DNA of 64,000 bases. Origin: Streptomyces sp. NBC_00440. Its GTDB lineage: Bacteria; Actinomycetota; Actinomycetes; Streptomycetales; Streptomycetaceae. The stretch's first letter is position 1; each line of letters starts with the position of its first letter. The position numbers and the translations under genes are program-made. The stretch is taken from assembly GCF_036014215.1 (NCBI RefSeq), contig NZ_CP107921.1, positions 3,149,001 through 3,213,000 of the forward strand. Direction: 5' to 3'. A model generated the notes under the pieces. It saw only the letters and a list, made by a program, of their open reading frames with translations, did no database searches and was not told the origin of the DNA. Shown here piece by piece: positions 7,066 to 15,017 of this stretch.

Positions 7066-7962
7066 TCAGCTGCCCTCTGTCGCCGGGGCCCTTCCCGTCA
7101 GTGAGGCCAGGCTGCTCCTCACATGGGACATGTGCGCCCGCAGCTCGTCCTGCGCCTCGCCGTTCTCGCGCAGGACCCGATCCGCCTCCCGTGCTGTGCG
7201 CTCCGCGCGGGCCCGGGCGTGCGCAACCAGCTCCGCCGCCTGCGCCTCCGCATCCTCCTGGCCGTGCCGCGCCGACTCCTCCGTCACCGACAGCGCCCGC
7301 CGCGCCTCCGCCAGACGGGCCTCGGCCCGGGCGATCAGATCCGCATGACGGGCATCGAAGTCGGCCTCCCTGGCGGCCAGTTCACGCTCAGCCGCATCGG
7401 CGCGCTCGCCGTGCTCCTTCTCCAGCTCCGCCAGCGCAGCCGCCGTGCGCTCCCGCATCTCCCGCAGCACGCCCAGCGCCTCACCGCGCCACTGCTTCGC
7501 GTCCTTGCGCGAACCGATCCGCAGCTCGTCGGACGTGCCCTGCGCGGCCGCCAGCACCTGCTGGGCGTGCGCCTCGGCCGCGGCCAGCGCCGCGTCCGCG
7601 TCCGCCCGCGCCGCGTCCCGCAGCCCCCGTTCCACCACGCCCGCCTCGTCATGGAGCTGCTGGGCCACCGCCAGCGCCTCGCCGCGCAGCCCGGCAGCCT
7701 CCTCAGTGACCAGCGTGATCAGCGTCCGGGCCCGCTCCCCCAACGTCTCGTACGTCTGCGGGGCGAGCCCGGCCACCTGCTCGGCCAGCGCGGCGGACGT
7801 GGCCTCCATCTCCTTGGTGAGGACGGTCAGCCGCGCCGCGCGCTCCCAGGCACCGTCGCGGTCGTCCGAGAGTTCCGCGACGAACCGGTCGACCTGCTCG
7901 GGCCGGTACCCACGACCCCGCACGCCCGTGAAGCCATGAGGTGACACCGCTGCTGAACTCAT
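7066..7962 (-). CDS. Coiled-coil protein with DivIVA-like N-terminus ('cellulose-binding' family, Scy/FilP-like)
   Basis: A 298-residue protein, nearly all alpha-helical. The N-terminus FTGVRGRGYRPEQVDRF (about residues 10-26) resembles the DivIVA lipid-binding motif, where an exposed aromatic/Arg turn precedes 'GY...QVD.F'. The rest, about residues 45-285, is a long Ala/Glu/Arg heptad-rich coiled coil with several AEAHAQ/ARAEA blocks. Streptomyces genomes usually call such proteins 'cellulose-binding protein', and relatives (Scy, FilP, DivIVA) organise hyphal tips. A role in polar or cytoskeletal scaffolding is inferred from this resemblance; actual cellulose binding is not supported by anything visible. 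The gene is monocistronic. The ATG at 7962 has GAAGG nearby. Confidence 0.8.
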   Translation of the reverse strand: MSSAAVSPHGFTGVRGRGYRPEQVDRFVAELSDDRDGAWERAARLTVLTKEMEATSAALAEQVAGLAPQTYETLGERARTLITLVTEEAAGLRGEALAVAQQLHDEAGVVERGLRDAARADADAALAAAEAHAQQVLAAAQGTSDELRIGSRKDAKQWRGEALGVLREMRERTAAALAELEKEHGERADAAERELAAREADFDARHADLIARAEARLAEARRALSVTEESARHGQEDAEAQAAELVAHARARAERTAREADRVLRENGEAQDELRAHMSHVRSSLASLTGRAPATEGS

Positions 7963-8354: not shown

Positions 8355-11150
8355 TCAGAGCAGCCCGTCCCACATCTGCTCCAGCAGGACCGACCACCAG
8401 CTCTCCGGCGAACCGAGCGCCGCCGGATCCAGCATCAGCAACTGCGCCTGGAAGTCGACCGTCCACCGGCCGGCCTGCTCCGGGGTGAGGCCGAAGCGCA
8501 GCCGCCACATCCGGCCCAGCAGCGCCAGCGACCGTACGAACTCGGGCAGCCCGGAGTTCACGAACTGCGGCGCCACCGGACGGCCGCCAGGACCCGCCTC
8601 CACCGGCACGGCCACGATGTTCGCCGTGCCGTACTGCACACAGATCGCCCGCCCGAAGTCGGAGCCCATCACCAGATACGACCCCGCGTCGGACGCGGGC
8701 TGCACCTGGCGCTGCGCGGCCAGCTCGGCCAGCGTCGGCACCGGCTGGCCCGGCACCGCCTGCGCCCAGAAGAACGGGCCGAAATCGACCGGCAGCCCCG
8801 CCCACACCAGCGTCTGCGCCACGGCCTCCGGCACACCCTGGCGGGACACGGCCCGCTGGTCGAAACGGAAGACGCCCTGCGGCCCGAAGGCCTGCGCCAG
8901 TTCGTGCGCGACACCCTGCGGCGGGACCGGCGGCGCCGGCTGCACCGCCGGCAGCGGGGCCCGCACCGGCGCCGGCCGCGCCGGACCGTCCGCGACCTGG
9001 TGCAACTCGCCCTGATGGGTCAGCAGATGCTGCATCCCCTGCTGGCGGCTGGCGTGATCCTTGCCGTACGGGGCGACGCTGGTGATCCGGACCTGCGGCC
9101 AGGTCTCCCGGATCATCCGCGCACAGTACCCACCCGGCAGCTCGCACGACTCCAGCTCCGTGTGCAGCTCGATGACCTGCTGCGGCGGCACGTTCATGGC
9201 CCGCAGCTCGTGCAGCATCTGCCACTCGGGGTGCGGGGTGCCGGGCGCGGAACGGCGGATGAGCTGCTGCTCCGAACCGTCCTGCGCGCGGTAGCGCAGC
9301 ACGGCCTGATAGCCGGGGCCCACCGTCGGCAGCCCACCGGGGGGCTGCTGCGGATACCCGTACGCGGCACCCTGCGGCGGCGGCACGGGACCGGGCGGCT
9401 GCGCAGGACCGGGAGGCGGAATCCGGCCGGGCGGCGGCGTGCCCCCGGGGCCGGCCAGCATGGTGGCCGCGTGGTGCACATCGCCACCGATGCTCCCACC
9501 GGGCGGCGGAGGCGTCGGCGGAGCGGCCTGACCGGGCCGGCCCGGCGGACCGGGCGGCTGCGGCACACCCGCACCGGGCACACCGGGCGGACCCGGCGGC
9601 TGCGGCGCACCGGGCGGACCGGCAGGCCTGGCACCGCCGAGACCGCCCTGGCCCCCGGGACCGCGACCACCGAGACTGCCCTGGCCGCCCAGACTCGGAC
9701 CCGCCAGCATCGTCGCCGCCTGGTGCACATCGCCACCGGAGCCCCCACCGGTACTTCCGCCGGGCGGCGGAGGCGTCGGCGGCACGGGCGGCTGCGGCAC
9801 GCCGGGCTGACCGGGCGGCTGCTGACCGGGAGTCTGCGGCGCACCCGGGGCACCGGACGCACCGGGCGGTCCGGGCGGCTGCGGGCCCTCGGGGCCGAGG
9901 TGCGAGACCAGCTGCGTACGTACGTAACCACCGGCCGGAACACCCGGCGGCAGCGGCGGAGCAGCATCGGGCCGCGCACCCGGGGTGCCCGGGGCGCCGG
10001 GCGGGGGCGGCGTGGTCACACCACTGCCTCGCGCCGACCGCGGGGGCGCGGTGGCCTTGCTGGTCGCGGCGTCGGCGATGTCACCGGCACCGGGGCCGGC
10101 AGCGGGGCCCTGGCCCGGAACCTGACCGGCGGCGGGCGGCAGAGGCGCACCCGGACCCGGCGGCGTCTGCGACGGGGGCTGCGGCAACGACTGCGGCGGC
10201 TGCTGACCCCCCATCGACGGCTGCTGAGGCAGCGGCGAGGGCTGCGGGAACTGCGGCGGCTGAGGCTGCTGCGGCGGCTGGGGCTGCTGCGGCGGCTGGG
10301 GCTGCTGCTGGGGTCCGCTCAGCGCGGGCGCGATGGTCGTCCTCGGCAGCCCGCTGCCACCGGACATCAGCGCCGTCTTGGCCTCGGGCGCCACACCGGG
10401 CGGCGGGGCACCCTCGTCGTCCGAACCGGCCAGCGGCGGCGCGAACACGGTCCCGGGCAGCGGAACCGAACCGTCCGGACCACCCGGCGCCGCATTGGTG
10501 TCGGTCCCGGCCCACGGGGTCCCGTCCGCCGGGACGCCCGCACCGGCTGCGGGCGCATGGCCCCCGCCGGCACCACCGGACGCACTGGAACCACCGGACA
10601 CGTCGGACCCTGCCGACGCACCCGCGCCCACGCCCGCGCCTGCTCCCGGCCAGGAAGGCGACGCACCGCCGCCGGCCGACGGGCTCCCACCCGACGTACC
10701 CCAACTGCCCCCCGCAGCAGGCGCACCAGCACCCGCACCATCCCCGGATCCAGCCCCGGACCCCGACCGCCGGTCAGGAATCCCCAGCTTGTCCGCCGCG
10801 TCCTGCAGCCACTCCGGCGGAGTCAGCAGGAACGACGTCTGGTTCAGATCGATCCGCTGCGGCGGCTCCGGCGCCGCAGGCGCATCGCCCGTCACCCCGT
10901 ACTCCTCCTCGTACCGCCGCACCACCTCGCCGACCGGCAGCCCGGGCCACAGCGTCGCCTCACCGCCGTCCCGCGCGATCACCAGCCTCTGACGGCCGCC
11001 ACCACCCGAAGGGCCCTCCGCGCGGTCCTCCGCCCACACCACGAAACCGAGGTCGAACTCCCGTACCCGCACCTCACGGTGCTGATACGCGGCCACGTCC
11101 CCGTTGACCCACTCTTCCGCGCGCTCCTGCGCCTGCGCAAAGGTCACCAT
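8355..11150 (-). CDS. Multidomain protein: YrhB/Imm35-like domain, Pro/Gly/Gln linker, nucleotide-deaminase-like domain, SUKH-4 domain
   Basis: 931 residues. Residues 1-88 (AEEWVNGDVAAY, FDLGFVVWAEDR, RLVIARDGGEATLWPGLPV) match the YrhB/Imm35 immunity fold. About 130-610 is a low-complexity linker of Pro, Gly, Gln and Ser. About 614-720 looks like a zinc deaminase of the polymorphic-toxin class: PHPEW supplies H640-x-E642, and SCELPGGYC supplies C669 and C676. About 750-931 (FRFDQRAVSRQGVPEAV, GPFFWAQAVPG, DFGRAICVQ) resembles SUKH-4 immunity proteins. So a toxin-type catalytic domain sits between two immunity-type domains in one chain. There is no signal peptide, WXG100, LXG or other export module. 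The gene starts 7 bases after the WHH-SUKH gene and is co-transcribed with it. Domain names come from motif recall; the deaminase subtype is uncertain. Confidence 0.75.
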   Translation of the reverse strand: MVTFAQAQERAEEWVNGDVAAYQHREVRVREFDLGFVVWAEDRAEGPSGGGGRQRLVIARDGGEATLWPGLPVGEVVRRYEEEYGVTGDAPAAPEPPQRIDLNQTSFLLTPPEWLQDAADKLGIPDRRSGSGAGSGDGAGAGAPAAGGSWGTSGGSPSAGGGASPSWPGAGAGVGAGASAGSDVSGGSSASGGAGGGHAPAAGAGVPADGTPWAGTDTNAAPGGPDGSVPLPGTVFAPPLAGSDDEGAPPPGVAPEAKTALMSGGSGLPRTTIAPALSGPQQQPQPPQQPQPPQQPQPPQFPQPSPLPQQPSMGGQQPPQSLPQPPSQTPPGPGAPLPPAAGQVPGQGPAAGPGAGDIADAATSKATAPPRSARGSGVTTPPPPGAPGTPGARPDAAPPLPPGVPAGGYVRTQLVSHLGPEGPQPPGPPGASGAPGAPQTPGQQPPGQPGVPQPPVPPTPPPPGGSTGGGSGGDVHQAATMLAGPSLGGQGSLGGRGPGGQGGLGGARPAGPPGAPQPPGPPGVPGAGVPQPPGPPGRPGQAAPPTPPPPGGSIGGDVHHAATMLAGPGGTPPPGRIPPPGPAQPPGPVPPPQGAAYGYPQQPPGGLPTVGPGYQAVLRYRAQDGSEQQLIRRSAPGTPHPEWQMLHELRAMNVPPQQVIELHTELESCELPGGYCARMIRETWPQVRITSVAPYGKDHASRQQGMQHLLTHQGELHQVADGPARPAPVRAPLPAVQPAPPVPPQGVAHELAQAFGPQGVFRFDQRAVSRQGVPEAVAQTLVWAGLPVDFGPFFWAQAVPGQPVPTLAELAAQRQVQPASDAGSYLVMGSDFGRAICVQYGTANIVAVPVEAGPGGRPVAPQFVNSGLPEFVRSLALLGRMWRLRFGLTPEQAGRWTVDFQAQLLMLDPAALGSPESWWSVLLEQMWDGLL

Positions 11151-11157
11151 CGGCTCT

Positions 11158-12141
11158 TCACCCCTCGGCCGAGACCGGGACGGCCTGCGCGAAGCCGCCG
11201 TCCACCATCAGGTTCGCCACTGTCTCCAGCTCCGGCGGATTCCCCGCGAGCCGCTCCAGGAACGCATCGAAATCCTCACCGCACGGCAGCAGCAACCGCT
11301 CCACCCGCTCCGCCGGCGGCCACGCGTCCTGGTCCCTGGCATCGTCGTACGCACAGAACCAGACCGTGCCGACAGCGCCGCCCTTCACCTTCACGGCGAC
11401 GATCCCGCCCTGGACGAAACCCACGCCCAGATAGTCCTTCGTCAGATGGTCCCGCAGACACTTGTTCACGTACACCAGGTCATTGACAGCGGCCTCGTCG
11501 CGCACCGTGAAGAACGGCTGGTCCACCAGCAGGCCCAACTCCGCGTCCAGCGCGGTCCCGACCGGCGCACAGCCGCCCGCCGCCTTCAGGAACGACCGGT
11601 ACGCGGCAGGCAGCCGGTACCCGAGATCCTCCTCAGCGGCCAGAACCAGCTGCTCGCCGACCGCCACCGCACCCCTGGGCAGCCCGAAATGGACCGGCCG
11701 GGTGTCCTGCAGCGGACGCGTACCCCGCTTGTTCTGGTCGACGGCCGCCGTCGCCAGCCCGCCGTGATGCCGCAACAGCGCCTTGACCTCGACCGGTACG
11801 AGTTCCAGACGGCGCGCACCGGGCACGTGGTGCCAGGTCCAGCCGTGCGGCGTGGCAACGGCCGGGATCGTGTCCCACAGCTCGTGCCCCGAGGCCGCCA
11901 GCGCGGCATTGGCCGACACATAGTCCGTCAGCCGCAACTCGTCGACGCCGAACCCCTCCGGGGGTTCCGCGATCTCCGCGGCCGCGCGCGCGTACGGCGA
12001 GAAATCCGGGAAGCCGTTCCCGTCCACCCGCACCCCACGGGGGTGGCGCGCGGCCCGGACCGGGTCCGGGAAGCTCACGAGCTGCCCGGCATAAGCCGCG
12101 TTCGGTGGCGCGGCTTGCTGCCCGAGCCGACCTGTCGTCAT
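11158..12141 (-). CDS. WHH (HNH/EndoVII) nuclease domain fused to SUKH-1 (SMI1/KNR4) domain
   Basis: 327 residues. The N-terminal 135 carry the WHH-type HNH/endonuclease VII signature: FPDFSPYA (44-51), LTDYVSAN (71-78), WTWHHVPGARRLELVPVEV (101-119, W103-H104-H105) and RHHGG (124-128). In polymorphic toxins this domain is a DNase with a single bound metal. Residues about 160-305 (VLAAEEDLGYRLPAAYRSFL, GCAPVG, FDAFLERL) are a SUKH-1/SMI1-KNR4 fold, the usual immunity protein for HNH toxins. The fusion places effector and antidote in one polypeptide with no export signal. It is the promoter-proximal gene of a two-gene leftward operon. One canonical lysine/histidine position reads VEVK instead of the common EIH, so nuclease activity may be lost. 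Confidence 0.8.
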   Translation of the reverse strand: MTTGRLGQQAAPPNAAYAGQLVSFPDPVRAARHPRGVRVDGNGFPDFSPYARAAAEIAEPPEGFGVDELRLTDYVSANAALAASGHELWDTIPAVATPHGWTWHHVPGARRLELVPVEVKALLRHHGGLATAAVDQNKRGTRPLQDTRPVHFGLPRGAVAVGEQLVLAAEEDLGYRLPAAYRSFLKAAGGCAPVGTALDAELGLLVDQPFFTVRDEAAVNDLVYVNKCLRDHLTKDYLGVGFVQGGIVAVKVKGGAVGTVWFCAYDDARDQDAWPPAERVERLLLPCGEDFDAFLERLAGNPPELETVANLMVDGGFAQAVPVSAEG

Positions 12142-12404: not shown

Positions 12405-12965
12405 ATGCACACCGCACAGACACCGCACACACCACACACAGTGCCGTCACCGCAGACCGGAGCGCCGTCACCGCAGACCGGGCCGGCCGGCGACCCACGT
12501 CTGCGCTGGAGCAGTACGGAAACCCGCCCGCCCGAACTCCTCCACCGCAGAGACGGCATCCTCCCCACAGTCGCCGCGGCACTCTCCGTCCGCGGCGCCG
12601 ACACCCTCACCTCCACCGCGGGCAAGGCCGACCAGCCCCCCACACTCCACCCGCTGGTCCACGACTTCCTCACCACCCTCACCAGCGGCCAGCGCGAACG
12701 ATTCACCGGACGCTGCCCCGAAGCGATCCTGCTCTCCCGCCACCTCACCGCCGTAGAAGGCACCCGCTCCAAACGGGCCTCCCGCAAACCCCTCACCAAC
12801 GGCGAAGCCCGCCGCACCCTCAAACACGCCAAAGTCACCGCCCGCCACATCCGCGAGGACGGCGACCCCCTCCACGGCAGCTACGCACCGCCCTGCCGCT
12901 CCTGTACGGCGATGCTCGCCCACTTCGGCGTACGCGCAGTCGACCCCACCACCGAGAAGGGCTGA
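12405..12965 (+). CDS. YwqJ-type deaminase domain protein
   Basis: 186 residues from the ATG at 12405; a longer open frame to 12105 runs through the divergent promoter and is unlikely. The catalytic pattern of YwqJ-like deaminases is visible: GRCPEA (C104-x-E106, the variant in which Cys replaces the usual zinc-ligand His) and HGSYAPPCRSC (C164 and C167), with HIREDGDP between them. In polymorphic toxin systems this family is proposed to deaminate nucleic acid bases or nucleotides. The N-terminus (about 1-30) is His/Pro/Thr-rich and not an export signal. A SUKH-3 immunity-type gene follows after 10 bases, the standard toxin-then-antidote order. Substrate and toxicity are inferred from family. 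Confidence 0.8.
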   Translation: MHTAQTPHTPHTVPSPQTGAPSPQTGPAGDPRLRWSSTETRPPELLHRRDGILPTVAAALSVRGADTLTSTAGKADQPPTLHPLVHDFLTTLTSGQRERFTGRCPEAILLSRHLTAVEGTRSKRASRKPLTNGEARRTLKHAKVTARHIREDGDPLHGSYAPPCRSCTAMLAHFGVRAVDPTTEKG

Positions 12966-12975
12966 ACCACCGCCG

Positions 12976-13494
12976 ATGCCGCCGCACCCGCAGGACGCGC
13001 CGGACGCACCCGCCGTCCCCAGCACCCGCTTCCCCGACACCGTGGACGCCGCGCTGCGCGAAGCGGGCTGGCTGCCCGGCCGCTGGGACATCCGGGGCGC
13101 CGAACAGTGGGCCGACACCCTGCGCGCCCACGTCTCACCCGCCGGCCACCAGCACGCGGTCTTCCCCGCGGCCGTCGAAGCCTGGGCCGAATTCGGCGGA
13201 CTGCGCATCACCGGCCCCGCACCCGGCCGCCAGACAGCACCCGCCCCGGTCCTGATCGACCCGCTCAGCGGCCTGCACCTCGCCCGCACCCTCGCCGACC
13301 TGGGCCGCGCACTCGACACCGAGATCGCCCCGCTCGGCGACGAAGGAGACGGCCGGGCACTGCTCGCCATCGACTCCGAAGGCCGCATCTACAGCATCGA
13401 CCACACCGGCGACTGGTACCTCGGCCACGACATCGACCAGGGCCTCGTCACCCTCATCACCGGACTCCAGGCAGTCAGACTGGGCTCGGGGTAA
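12976..13494 (+). CDS. SUKH-3 family immunity-type protein
   Basis: 172 residues. The SUKH-3 pattern runs the length of the chain: an N-terminal helix (FPDTVDAALREAGWLPGRW), AVEAWAEFGGLRITGP (about 66-81), LIDPLSG, the PLG...LLAIDSEGRIYSIDH block (about 118-142), and GDWYLGHDIDQGLVTLITG near the end. SUKH-3 proteins are the usual cognates of deaminase toxins, and this gene starts 10 bases after a YwqJ-type deaminase. Binding and neutralising that deaminase is the likely role, inferred from family and operon structure. Confidence 0.85.
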   Translation: MPPHPQDAPDAPAVPSTRFPDTVDAALREAGWLPGRWDIRGAEQWADTLRAHVSPAGHQHAVFPAAVEAWAEFGGLRITGPAPGRQTAPAPVLIDPLSGLHLARTLADLGRALDTEIAPLGDEGDGRALLAIDSEGRIYSIDHTGDWYLGHDIDQGLVTLITGLQAVRLGSG

Positions 13495-13518: not shown

Positions 13519-13560
13519 GTCAGGTCAGGTCAGGTCCGGTGAGGTCCGGTCAGCTCAGCT
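13519..13560. repeat. Short GGTCA/GGTCCGGT direct repeats
   Basis: A run of GTCAG GTCAG GTCAG GTCCG GTGAG GTCCG GTCAG CTCAG lies between the convergent SUKH-3 and histidine kinase genes and touches the last codons of the kinase gene. It looks like pentanucleotide slippage. A similar pattern occurs at 33124-33168. Confidence 0.5.
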
Positions 13561-14874
13561 CTGTCCGGCCGGCCGCTGCTCCGGCAACACCGCCGACACC
13601 CGGAACCCCCCGGCCTCCGTGGGCCCCGACACGAACACCCCGCCCAGCGCGGTCACCCGCTCCCGCATCCCCAGCAGCCCGTTCCCCCCGCTGGGCAGCC
13701 CCGCATCGGCCGCACCCGCGTCCGAAGGACCGTTCTCGATCTGCAGAGCGACCTCGGCTGTCCGATGCGCCAGCCGCACCCGGGTCTTCGCCCCGGCAGC
13801 GTGCTTGTGCACATTCGTCAGCGCCTCCTGCACCACCCGGTACGCCGTCTGCTCCACCAGCGCGTCGTACGGTCCGGCCACACCCTCCACCAGCAGCTCC
13901 ACCACCATCCCCGCCGCCCGCGACTGCCCCACGAGCACATCCAGCTCATCCAGGCACGGCCCGTCCTCCACCGCTGCCGCAGCAGCCGCCGCAGCAGCCA
14001 CCCCGACCGCCGCCAGCGGCACCGCCGCCGGAGCCCTCACCGGCTCACCGGAACGCAGCACCCCGAGCATCTCCCGCAACTCGGTCAGCGCCTGCCGCCC
14101 CATGTCCCCCACCAGCGCCGCGTTCTTCGACGCCTTCGCCGGATCCTTCAACGCCACCGCCTGCAGAGCCGCCGCATGCACCACCATCAGACTCACCCGG
14201 TGCGCGACCACATCGTGCATCTCCCGCGCGATCCGCGTCCGCTCCTCCGTACGCGCCCACTCGGCCCGCTCCTCGGCCCGGTCCGCCAGCAGCGACAGCT
14301 CACGCTCCAGACTGTCCGCCCGCTCCCGCAGACTCTCCATGAGCCGGCGGCGCGCCCCGGTGTACAGCCCCAGCAGCACGGGCGGGGCCGTCAGCCCCAG
14401 CGACATGAAGACGGATCCGAGCACGACGAACTGCGATCCCGGACTGCCGTCCTCGGCCCCCATGCCGTGCCGCAGCCGCACGAACGTCACGATGAGCGTG
14501 CCGAGCGTCGCCATCACCGTCAGCGCACCGGTCAGCCGACGCGGCACATCGGACGCGGCGAGCGTGTAGAGCCCGACGATGCCCATCAGGAAACCCATCT
14601 GGGCGGGCGTGGTGGCGATCGACACCAGCACCACCGCGATCGGCCACCGCCGCCGAAGCACCAGTACGAATCCGGCCAACAGCCCGAACACCACCCCGAA
14701 CGGCACGGGAAGCCCGGCCTGCCCGGAGAAATCGACACCCTCCAACGCACACTCAAGAGCCGAGACAACACCCAGCCCCACATCCAGCACGGCACTGCGC
14801 CGCCGTTCCCACCACCACCAGCCACGGGCGGTCAGCCCCGTGGCCGTGGCGTCGTGCGCCCCCGTTGCGGTCAT
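13555..14874 (-). CDS. Orphan sensor histidine kinase (HisKA_3 family)
   Basis: A 439-residue NarL-class sensor kinase. Four to five membrane spans fill about residues 20-180. A coiled coil follows (LRERADSLERELSLLADRAEERA, about 190-215), then the HisKA_3 phosphoacceptor box REMHDVVAHRVSLMVVHA (His in MHDVVAHR). The ATP-binding domain contains ALTNVHKHAAG (N-box) and GNGLLGMRERVTALGG (G-box). An Ala-rich insertion (VAAAAAAAAAV) interrupts the linker between HisKA_3 and ATPase. I chose MTATGAHD at 14874; an upstream ATG at 14979 would add 35 residues without family character. No response regulator is adjacent, so its partner is elsewhere. The LuxR-type regulators at 42384 and 58009 are candidates in the window but not linked. 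Confidence 0.88.
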   Translation of the reverse strand: MTATGAHDATATGLTARGWWWWERRRSAVLDVGLGVVSALECALEGVDFSGQAGLPVPFGVVFGLLAGFVLVLRRRWPIAVVLVSIATTPAQMGFLMGIVGLYTLAASDVPRRLTGALTVMATLGTLIVTFVRLRHGMGAEDGSPGSQFVVLGSVFMSLGLTAPPVLLGLYTGARRRLMESLRERADSLERELSLLADRAEERAEWARTEERTRIAREMHDVVAHRVSLMVVHAAALQAVALKDPAKASKNAALVGDMGRQALTELREMLGVLRSGEPVRAPAAVPLAAVGVAAAAAAAAAVEDGPCLDELDVLVGQSRAAGMVVELLVEGVAGPYDALVEQTAYRVVQEALTNVHKHAAGAKTRVRLAHRTAEVALQIENGPSDAGAADAGLPSGGNGLLGMRERVTALGGVFVSGPTEAGGFRVSAVLPEQRPAGQS

Positions 14875-15017
14875 GGCAACCAGCGTACGGGCGGGCGCAC
14901 CCCCTGCCCCACGAATTTCGATGTGGGAGGTTACGCGCAATACGCCCGGATCACTCGATCCAGTGAATCGAGCAGACATTCGAACCAGACGTCCGCATTC
15001 CGGACGATGCTGATTCT

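Follow-up and report, generated by a model that had tools for sequence, protein, structure and literature searches.

A family-wide core gene of the Streptomycetaceae joins an XOO_2897-type deaminase to a SUKH-4 domain: a possible domesticated toxin-antidote fusion

The stretch of DNA analysed here, called the window, comprises 64,000 nucleotides of Streptomyces sp. NBC_00440 (contig NZ_CP107921.1, positions 3,149,001 to 3,213,000). It carries a gene for a 931-residue protein in which a deaminase of the kind found in polymorphic toxin systems is joined to an antidote-type SUKH-4 domain. This gene is a family-wide core gene of the Streptomycetaceae and not a strain-variable cassette. Its parts are the following (window positions).

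8355..11150, minus strand: full gene (931 aa), with N-terminal domain, motif-rich linker, XOO_2897-type deaminase and SUKH-4 domain
10881..11150, minus strand: small alpha+beta N-terminal domain, residues 1-90, conserved in orthologues
9336..10880, minus strand: linker rich in Pro, Gly and Ala, residues 91-605, in which [A/P]-T-x-[FILMV] motifs recur
9703..9725, minus strand: H-Q-A-A-T-M-L-A motif of the linker, first copy in the protein (converted from genome coordinates)
9454..9476, minus strand: H-H-A-A-T-M-L-A motif of the linker, second copy (converted from genome coordinates)
9018..9320, minus strand: XOO_2897-type deaminase domain, residues 611-711
9225..9233, minus strand: zinc motif H640-P641-E642, invariant in the orthologues compared
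9123..9146, minus strand: zinc motif C669-x6-C676, invariant in the orthologues compared
8376..8909, minus strand: SUKH-4 domain, residues 748-925

An earlier reading made from the letters of the window (the sequence-only reading) had proposed a putative deaminase held between two immunity domains in a single, non-exported chain. The profile search bore out the deaminase: the XOO_2897-like family of Pfam (PF14440) matches at 127.6 bits against a cut-off of 27, over profile positions 1-100 of 101, and this domain belongs to the deaminase fold. The H-x-E and C-x6-C zinc motif is present in the window protein and is kept in all of 123 distinct orthologous deaminases (from 168 loci at 55% identity or above, of 177 given). 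One of the two immunity domains, SUKH-4 (PF14435), is certain, with 163.4 bits for a cut-off of 25.5; for the other, the assignment of the N-terminal domain to Imm35/YrhB could not be confirmed, as detailed below. Databases name the protein either 'SUKH-4 family immunity protein' or nucleic acid/nucleotide deaminase of polymorphic system toxins. It has no NCBIfam match, and a search by sequence for solved relatives gave none that was convincing.

Frame sharing and selection were followed in 80 named loci, chosen as those that match the window best; the values therefore describe close relatives. Among 81 sequences, the coverage filter was passed by 78 for the deaminase, 69 for the N-terminal domain and, for the neighbouring genes presented further on, 72 for WHH, 70 for YwqJ and 68 for SUKH-3. 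The cis fusion was confirmed, deaminase and SUKH-4 lying in one frame at 78 loci out of 78; the N-terminal domain is in the same frame at 67 of 69. The median dN/dS, for pairs with a dS of 0.15-1, was 0.122 for the N-terminal domain, 0.144 for the deaminase and 0.208 for SUKH-4. The sequence-only reading had also considered a catalytically silenced decoy. For this gene we rejected it as unlikely: the zinc motif is intact in every deaminase compared, and constraint is stronger on the deaminase than on the SUKH-4 domain.

A match to the deaminase family was found in 188 of 199 genomes of the genus, although in one of them (G147, at just E 2.3e-23) the match may be a paralogue. Nine of the 11 genomes without a match do contain either the neighbouring WHH-SUKH-1 gene or the part that encodes SUKH-4, the remaining two being G127 and G144. 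In the three of these nine that were read further (G009, G029 and G113; loci L217-L219), the N-terminal domain is present, then the contig ends or reads N inside the gene. Such breaks probably come from the GC-rich, repetitive linker and make a core gene seem absent; on the basis of these three and of the remnants in the nine, real gene loss was set aside. In the family sample, 198 of 200 genomes gave a match, 193 of them at E<=1e-29. Outside the family, 7 of 13 genomes of the order matched (best E 1.4e-27), and the phylum sample gave 13 matches in 296 genomes: 12 of these lie within the genus, with the genome of the window among them, and the thirteenth is at E 2.6e-4. A mobile origin was set aside in view of the lack of any match in phage records and of just four matches among 72,556 plasmid records, all weak and covering about one third of the query. 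The gene and three neighbours matched no model of PADLOC (2023).

Two marks of polymorphic toxins are a C-terminal toxin accompanied by an export domain or signal, and a toxin domain that is patchy in distribution and diversifies fast. The present protein shows neither. Hydropathy revealed no signal or membrane segment, there is no export domain among the Pfam matches and the C-terminal domain is SUKH-4, not a toxin; the deaminase is nearly universal in both the genus and family samples, with the low dN/dS given above. The claim of a non-exported protein is thus supported, as far as hydropathy and Pfam go.

Residues 1-90 form a conserved domain predicted as a helix, four strands and a helix (mean model confidence, pLDDT, of 69). 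Pfam gave no match to Imm35/YrhB (PF15567), pairwise profile comparison with that family was weak (E 0.19 and 0.023 for two sets of N-termini), and the structural matches were generic, none being named Imm35 among the 50 matches listed. At locus L100, an open frame of 121 codons beside a paralogue encodes a relative of this domain by itself (31% over 65 residues), which would be compatible with a module of antidote type.

Linker length ranges between 218 and 723 residues, with a median of 461 for 67 orthologue linkers. ATMLA is found in 58 of the 67, with a mean of 1.6 copies, and SFLL.PP.WL follows a threonine in 56; the other commonest motifs are ATVFA, PTQLV and [K/P]TALM. In a set of 83 linkers, T-x-[FILMV] occurred 631 times versus 204 (sd 14) after shuffling. 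The frequency of a hydrophobic residue was 0.365 two positions after threonine, versus 0.118 in shuffled linkers, and 0.136 two positions after serine. Since the linkers are related to each other, 17 of them (the window's and 16 of the neighbourhood set defined below) were tested singly: 15 had an uncorrected p<0.05 and the other two were at 0.057 and 0.080. The [A/P]-T-x-[FILMV] motifs recur across genera within a Pro/Gly/Ala-rich background. A scan of this genome with one strict ATMLA-type pattern found only two copies, both in this gene. The threonine motifs may be docking or phosphorylation sites; the TSF form presumably resembles the ETTSVF kinase site of GarA/OdhI. The words SUKH and deaminase are absent from the main text of the S. 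rimosus phosphoproteome (PMC9600765).

The gene is surrounded by the following ones.

11158..12141, minus strand: upstream gene, 7 bases away, with a WHH nuclease domain (residues 96-133) fused to SUKH-1 (163-296)
12405..12965, plus strand: gene for a YwqJ-type deaminase that has the motifs CPE and PCRSC
12976..13494, plus strand: SUKH-3 gene, separate from YwqJ
7066..7962, minus strand: downstream gene whose DivIVA match is weak and below the cut-off
13555..14979, minus strand: histidine kinase gene, HisKA_3

Three units of toxin-antidote type therefore adjoin: two fusions and the divergent YwqJ/SUKH-3 pair (12405-13494). The conservation of the locus was assessed in 21 neighbourhoods, i.e. 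that of the window and 20 others, of which 15 are from 11 other genera. A DivIVA-like gene was present in 21, WHH-SUKH-1 in 19, YwqJ in 18 and SUKH-3 in 17; the two neighbourhoods devoid of WHH (L084 and L097) are both cut by contig ends. Because YwqJ and SUKH-3 lie some kb away in several genera, the tightest unit is WHH-SUKH-1 plus the present gene, with the DivIVA-like gene next in line. At all 72 loci compared, WHH and SUKH-1 form one fusion; at all 68 compared, YwqJ and SUKH-3 are two distinct genes. Median dN/dS values were 0.170 for WHH, 0.180 for SUKH-1, 0.270 for YwqJ and 0.286 for SUKH-3. The DivIVA-like gene evolves fast (0.577), though a relative is found downstream in every neighbourhood. 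A relative of the histidine kinase exists in 16 of the 21, on the other side of the locus in two. The conserved residues of the WHH family are listed as 'WHH, L, H, HxG' (PMC3482391, Table 2). In the WHH-SUKH-1 orthologues, a lysine stands at the position aligned, by eye, with the single histidine of that list in 91 sequences out of 91 (90 by pattern, one by eye), and the nuclease is for that reason likely degenerate. In YwqJ, the CxE and PCxxC motif is kept in 87 of 88 sequences.

A paralogue family without the long linker was detected in 14 of 121 genomes of the genus (15 copies at 55% identity or more). Its loci are L100 and L221-L234, L100 being the one locus that was read further; 14 of the 15 copies were fetched and the N-terminal domain could be aligned in 13 of these. 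All 14 have lost both cysteines of the zinc motif, and 13 of the 14 have lost the histidine. A decoy-like form thus does exist, as a patchy paralogue family distinct from the gene studied here. Two further paralogues have SUKH-4 placed ahead of the deaminase. In L100 (G065:C1:2662500-2682000), the paralogue lies near a protein of 1858 aa that combines WXG100-like and Gln_amidase domains with an XOO_2897 match below the cut-off. The genome of the window itself also contains the separated form (L104, G000:C1:552500-562500): a large protein, which we read as RHS-type, ends in an XOO_2897 deaminase, and a separate 144-aa SUKH-4 gene lies next to it. In the stretch read, the coding region of L104 is seemingly split over two frames.

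Several systems share parts of this organization. SUKH domains are described as occasionally fused to toxins, with XOO2897 among the SUKH-associated ones (PMC3482391). The XOO_2897/SUKH pairs of polymorphic toxin systems (PMC3482391; L104) use the same two Pfam families with like H-x-E and C-x6-C spacing, but at L104 a large protein has the deaminase at its end and SUKH-4 is a gene of its own, whereas here a single chain lacks export features and is a family-wide core protein. The adjacent WHH-SUKH-1 is also a nuclease-type domain fused to a SUKH domain; it differs in the lysine described above and so in a likely degenerate nuclease. UmbC1, a cytosine deaminase of Streptomyces umbrella particles (PMC11062931), is likewise a Streptomyces deaminase toxin with an immunity partner; it is, however, a component of a secreted particle with a separate downstream immunity gene (umbD1), and its C-G to T-A mutation activity is demonstrated. 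The double-stranded DNA deaminase DddA (PDB 6u08; 16% identity) differs as a type VI secretion effector whose immunity protein is separate in the structure. CapRel-SJ46, a fused toxin-antitoxin in which the C-terminal domain serves as antitoxin and also senses phage, resembles our protein in placing a toxin-type enzyme and an antitoxin-type domain in one intracellular chain (PMC9712102). Its toxin chemistry, tRNA pyrophosphorylation, is a different one, and its triggering by phage is demonstrated. No paper on this gene was found in searches of an open-licence library. The parts are known; their combination into a family-wide core, cis-fused, motif-tethered and apparently competent deaminase with a dead paralogue appears to be new.

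Intact zinc motif, in-frame SUKH-4, no export signal, conserved neighbourhood, family-wide presence and purifying selection are the observations from which we tentatively favour, at somewhat less than even confidence, a toxin-antidote fusion that was domesticated into a cytosolic protein belonging to the core set of the Streptomyces family, with SUKH-4 as a restraint in cis and a deaminase released by a signal. The strict conservation suggests a tamed internal tool rather than a weapon. SUKH-4 would bind the deaminase and hold it inactive within the same chain; the tether, via its threonine motifs, and the N-terminal domain would receive a signal, with the binding of a partner or Ser/Thr phosphorylation as candidates, that loosens this hold. 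The freed deaminase could then act on cellular or invading nucleic acid, a substrate proposed because the family is annotated so.

A number of points weigh against this. The structure model is too poor over SUKH-4 (overall pLDDT 55.8, predicted template modelling score 0.40) to show a contact between SUKH-4 and the deaminase. SUKH domains can act as plain binding modules. The kinship of the linkers means that the motif tests are not independent. Seven of the 200 family genomes, all from two genera (g193 and g196), have a weak match or none; of five searched with the domain pair of the window, two gave no match and three gave 24-37% identity. For this protein, no data on activity, expression or phosphorylation came to light. 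The dead paralogue family and the likely degenerate WHH nuclease next door indicate that fused units here need not be enzymes, and loss of catalysis is possible in such a setting.

These last two features are also what recommends a different view, namely that the deaminase is kept as bait or scaffold while SUKH-4 and the N-terminal domain bind partners or incoming toxins and no deamination occurs. Polyimmunity proteins are described (PMC3482391), and inactive enzymes are discussed as possible decoys in the conflict systems of multicellular prokaryotes (PMC7159879). We nevertheless hold it to be unlikely: a pure decoy does not readily explain why the zinc motif is under constraint in this gene when the related paralogue lost it, nor why the deaminase is more constrained than SUKH-4.

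By the logic of CapRel-SJ46 (PMC9712102), with toxin-type enzyme and antidote-type domain in one chain without export signal, SUKH-4 or the N-terminal domain might instead sense infection and free the deaminase to stop the infected hyphal compartment. Such an anti-phage fusion seems rather improbable, since near-universal presence and low dN/dS are unlike the usual patchy, fast-evolving defence genes and core status disfavours a role in a race with phages. The abortive-infection role put forward by the sequence-only reading is accordingly a poorer fit than a housekeeping or developmental one, which fits better with the family-wide conservation, the lack of PADLOC and phage matches and the four weak, partial plasmid matches. 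Finally, an exported antibacterial toxin carrying its own antidote, cleaved on delivery, is very improbable: XOO_2897 and SUKH domains are members of polymorphic toxin systems (PMC3482391) and the same genome has the separated pair of L104, but our deaminase is not C-terminal, varies little, lacks export features and belongs to a core gene.

If the domesticated, signal-controlled deaminase is the right reading, toxin and antidote would have become a permanent nucleic-acid deaminase of the producer's own cells. A more speculative form of it, which we regard as doubtful, has this enzyme act perhaps as a programmed editor of DNA or RNA during development or in the death of a compartment; the tether, which may hold Ser/Thr kinase sites, would be the switch, and the dead paralogue a side branch. 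The conserved, motif-rich tether resembles a regulatory platform, and the dead paralogue offers a natural built-in comparison. Toxin and antidote domains of this type are usually seen as strain-variable weapons; here an apparently competent deaminase and its antidote-type domain are kept together almost throughout a family of antibiotic producers, which makes the domestication of a possibly mutagenic enzyme directly testable.
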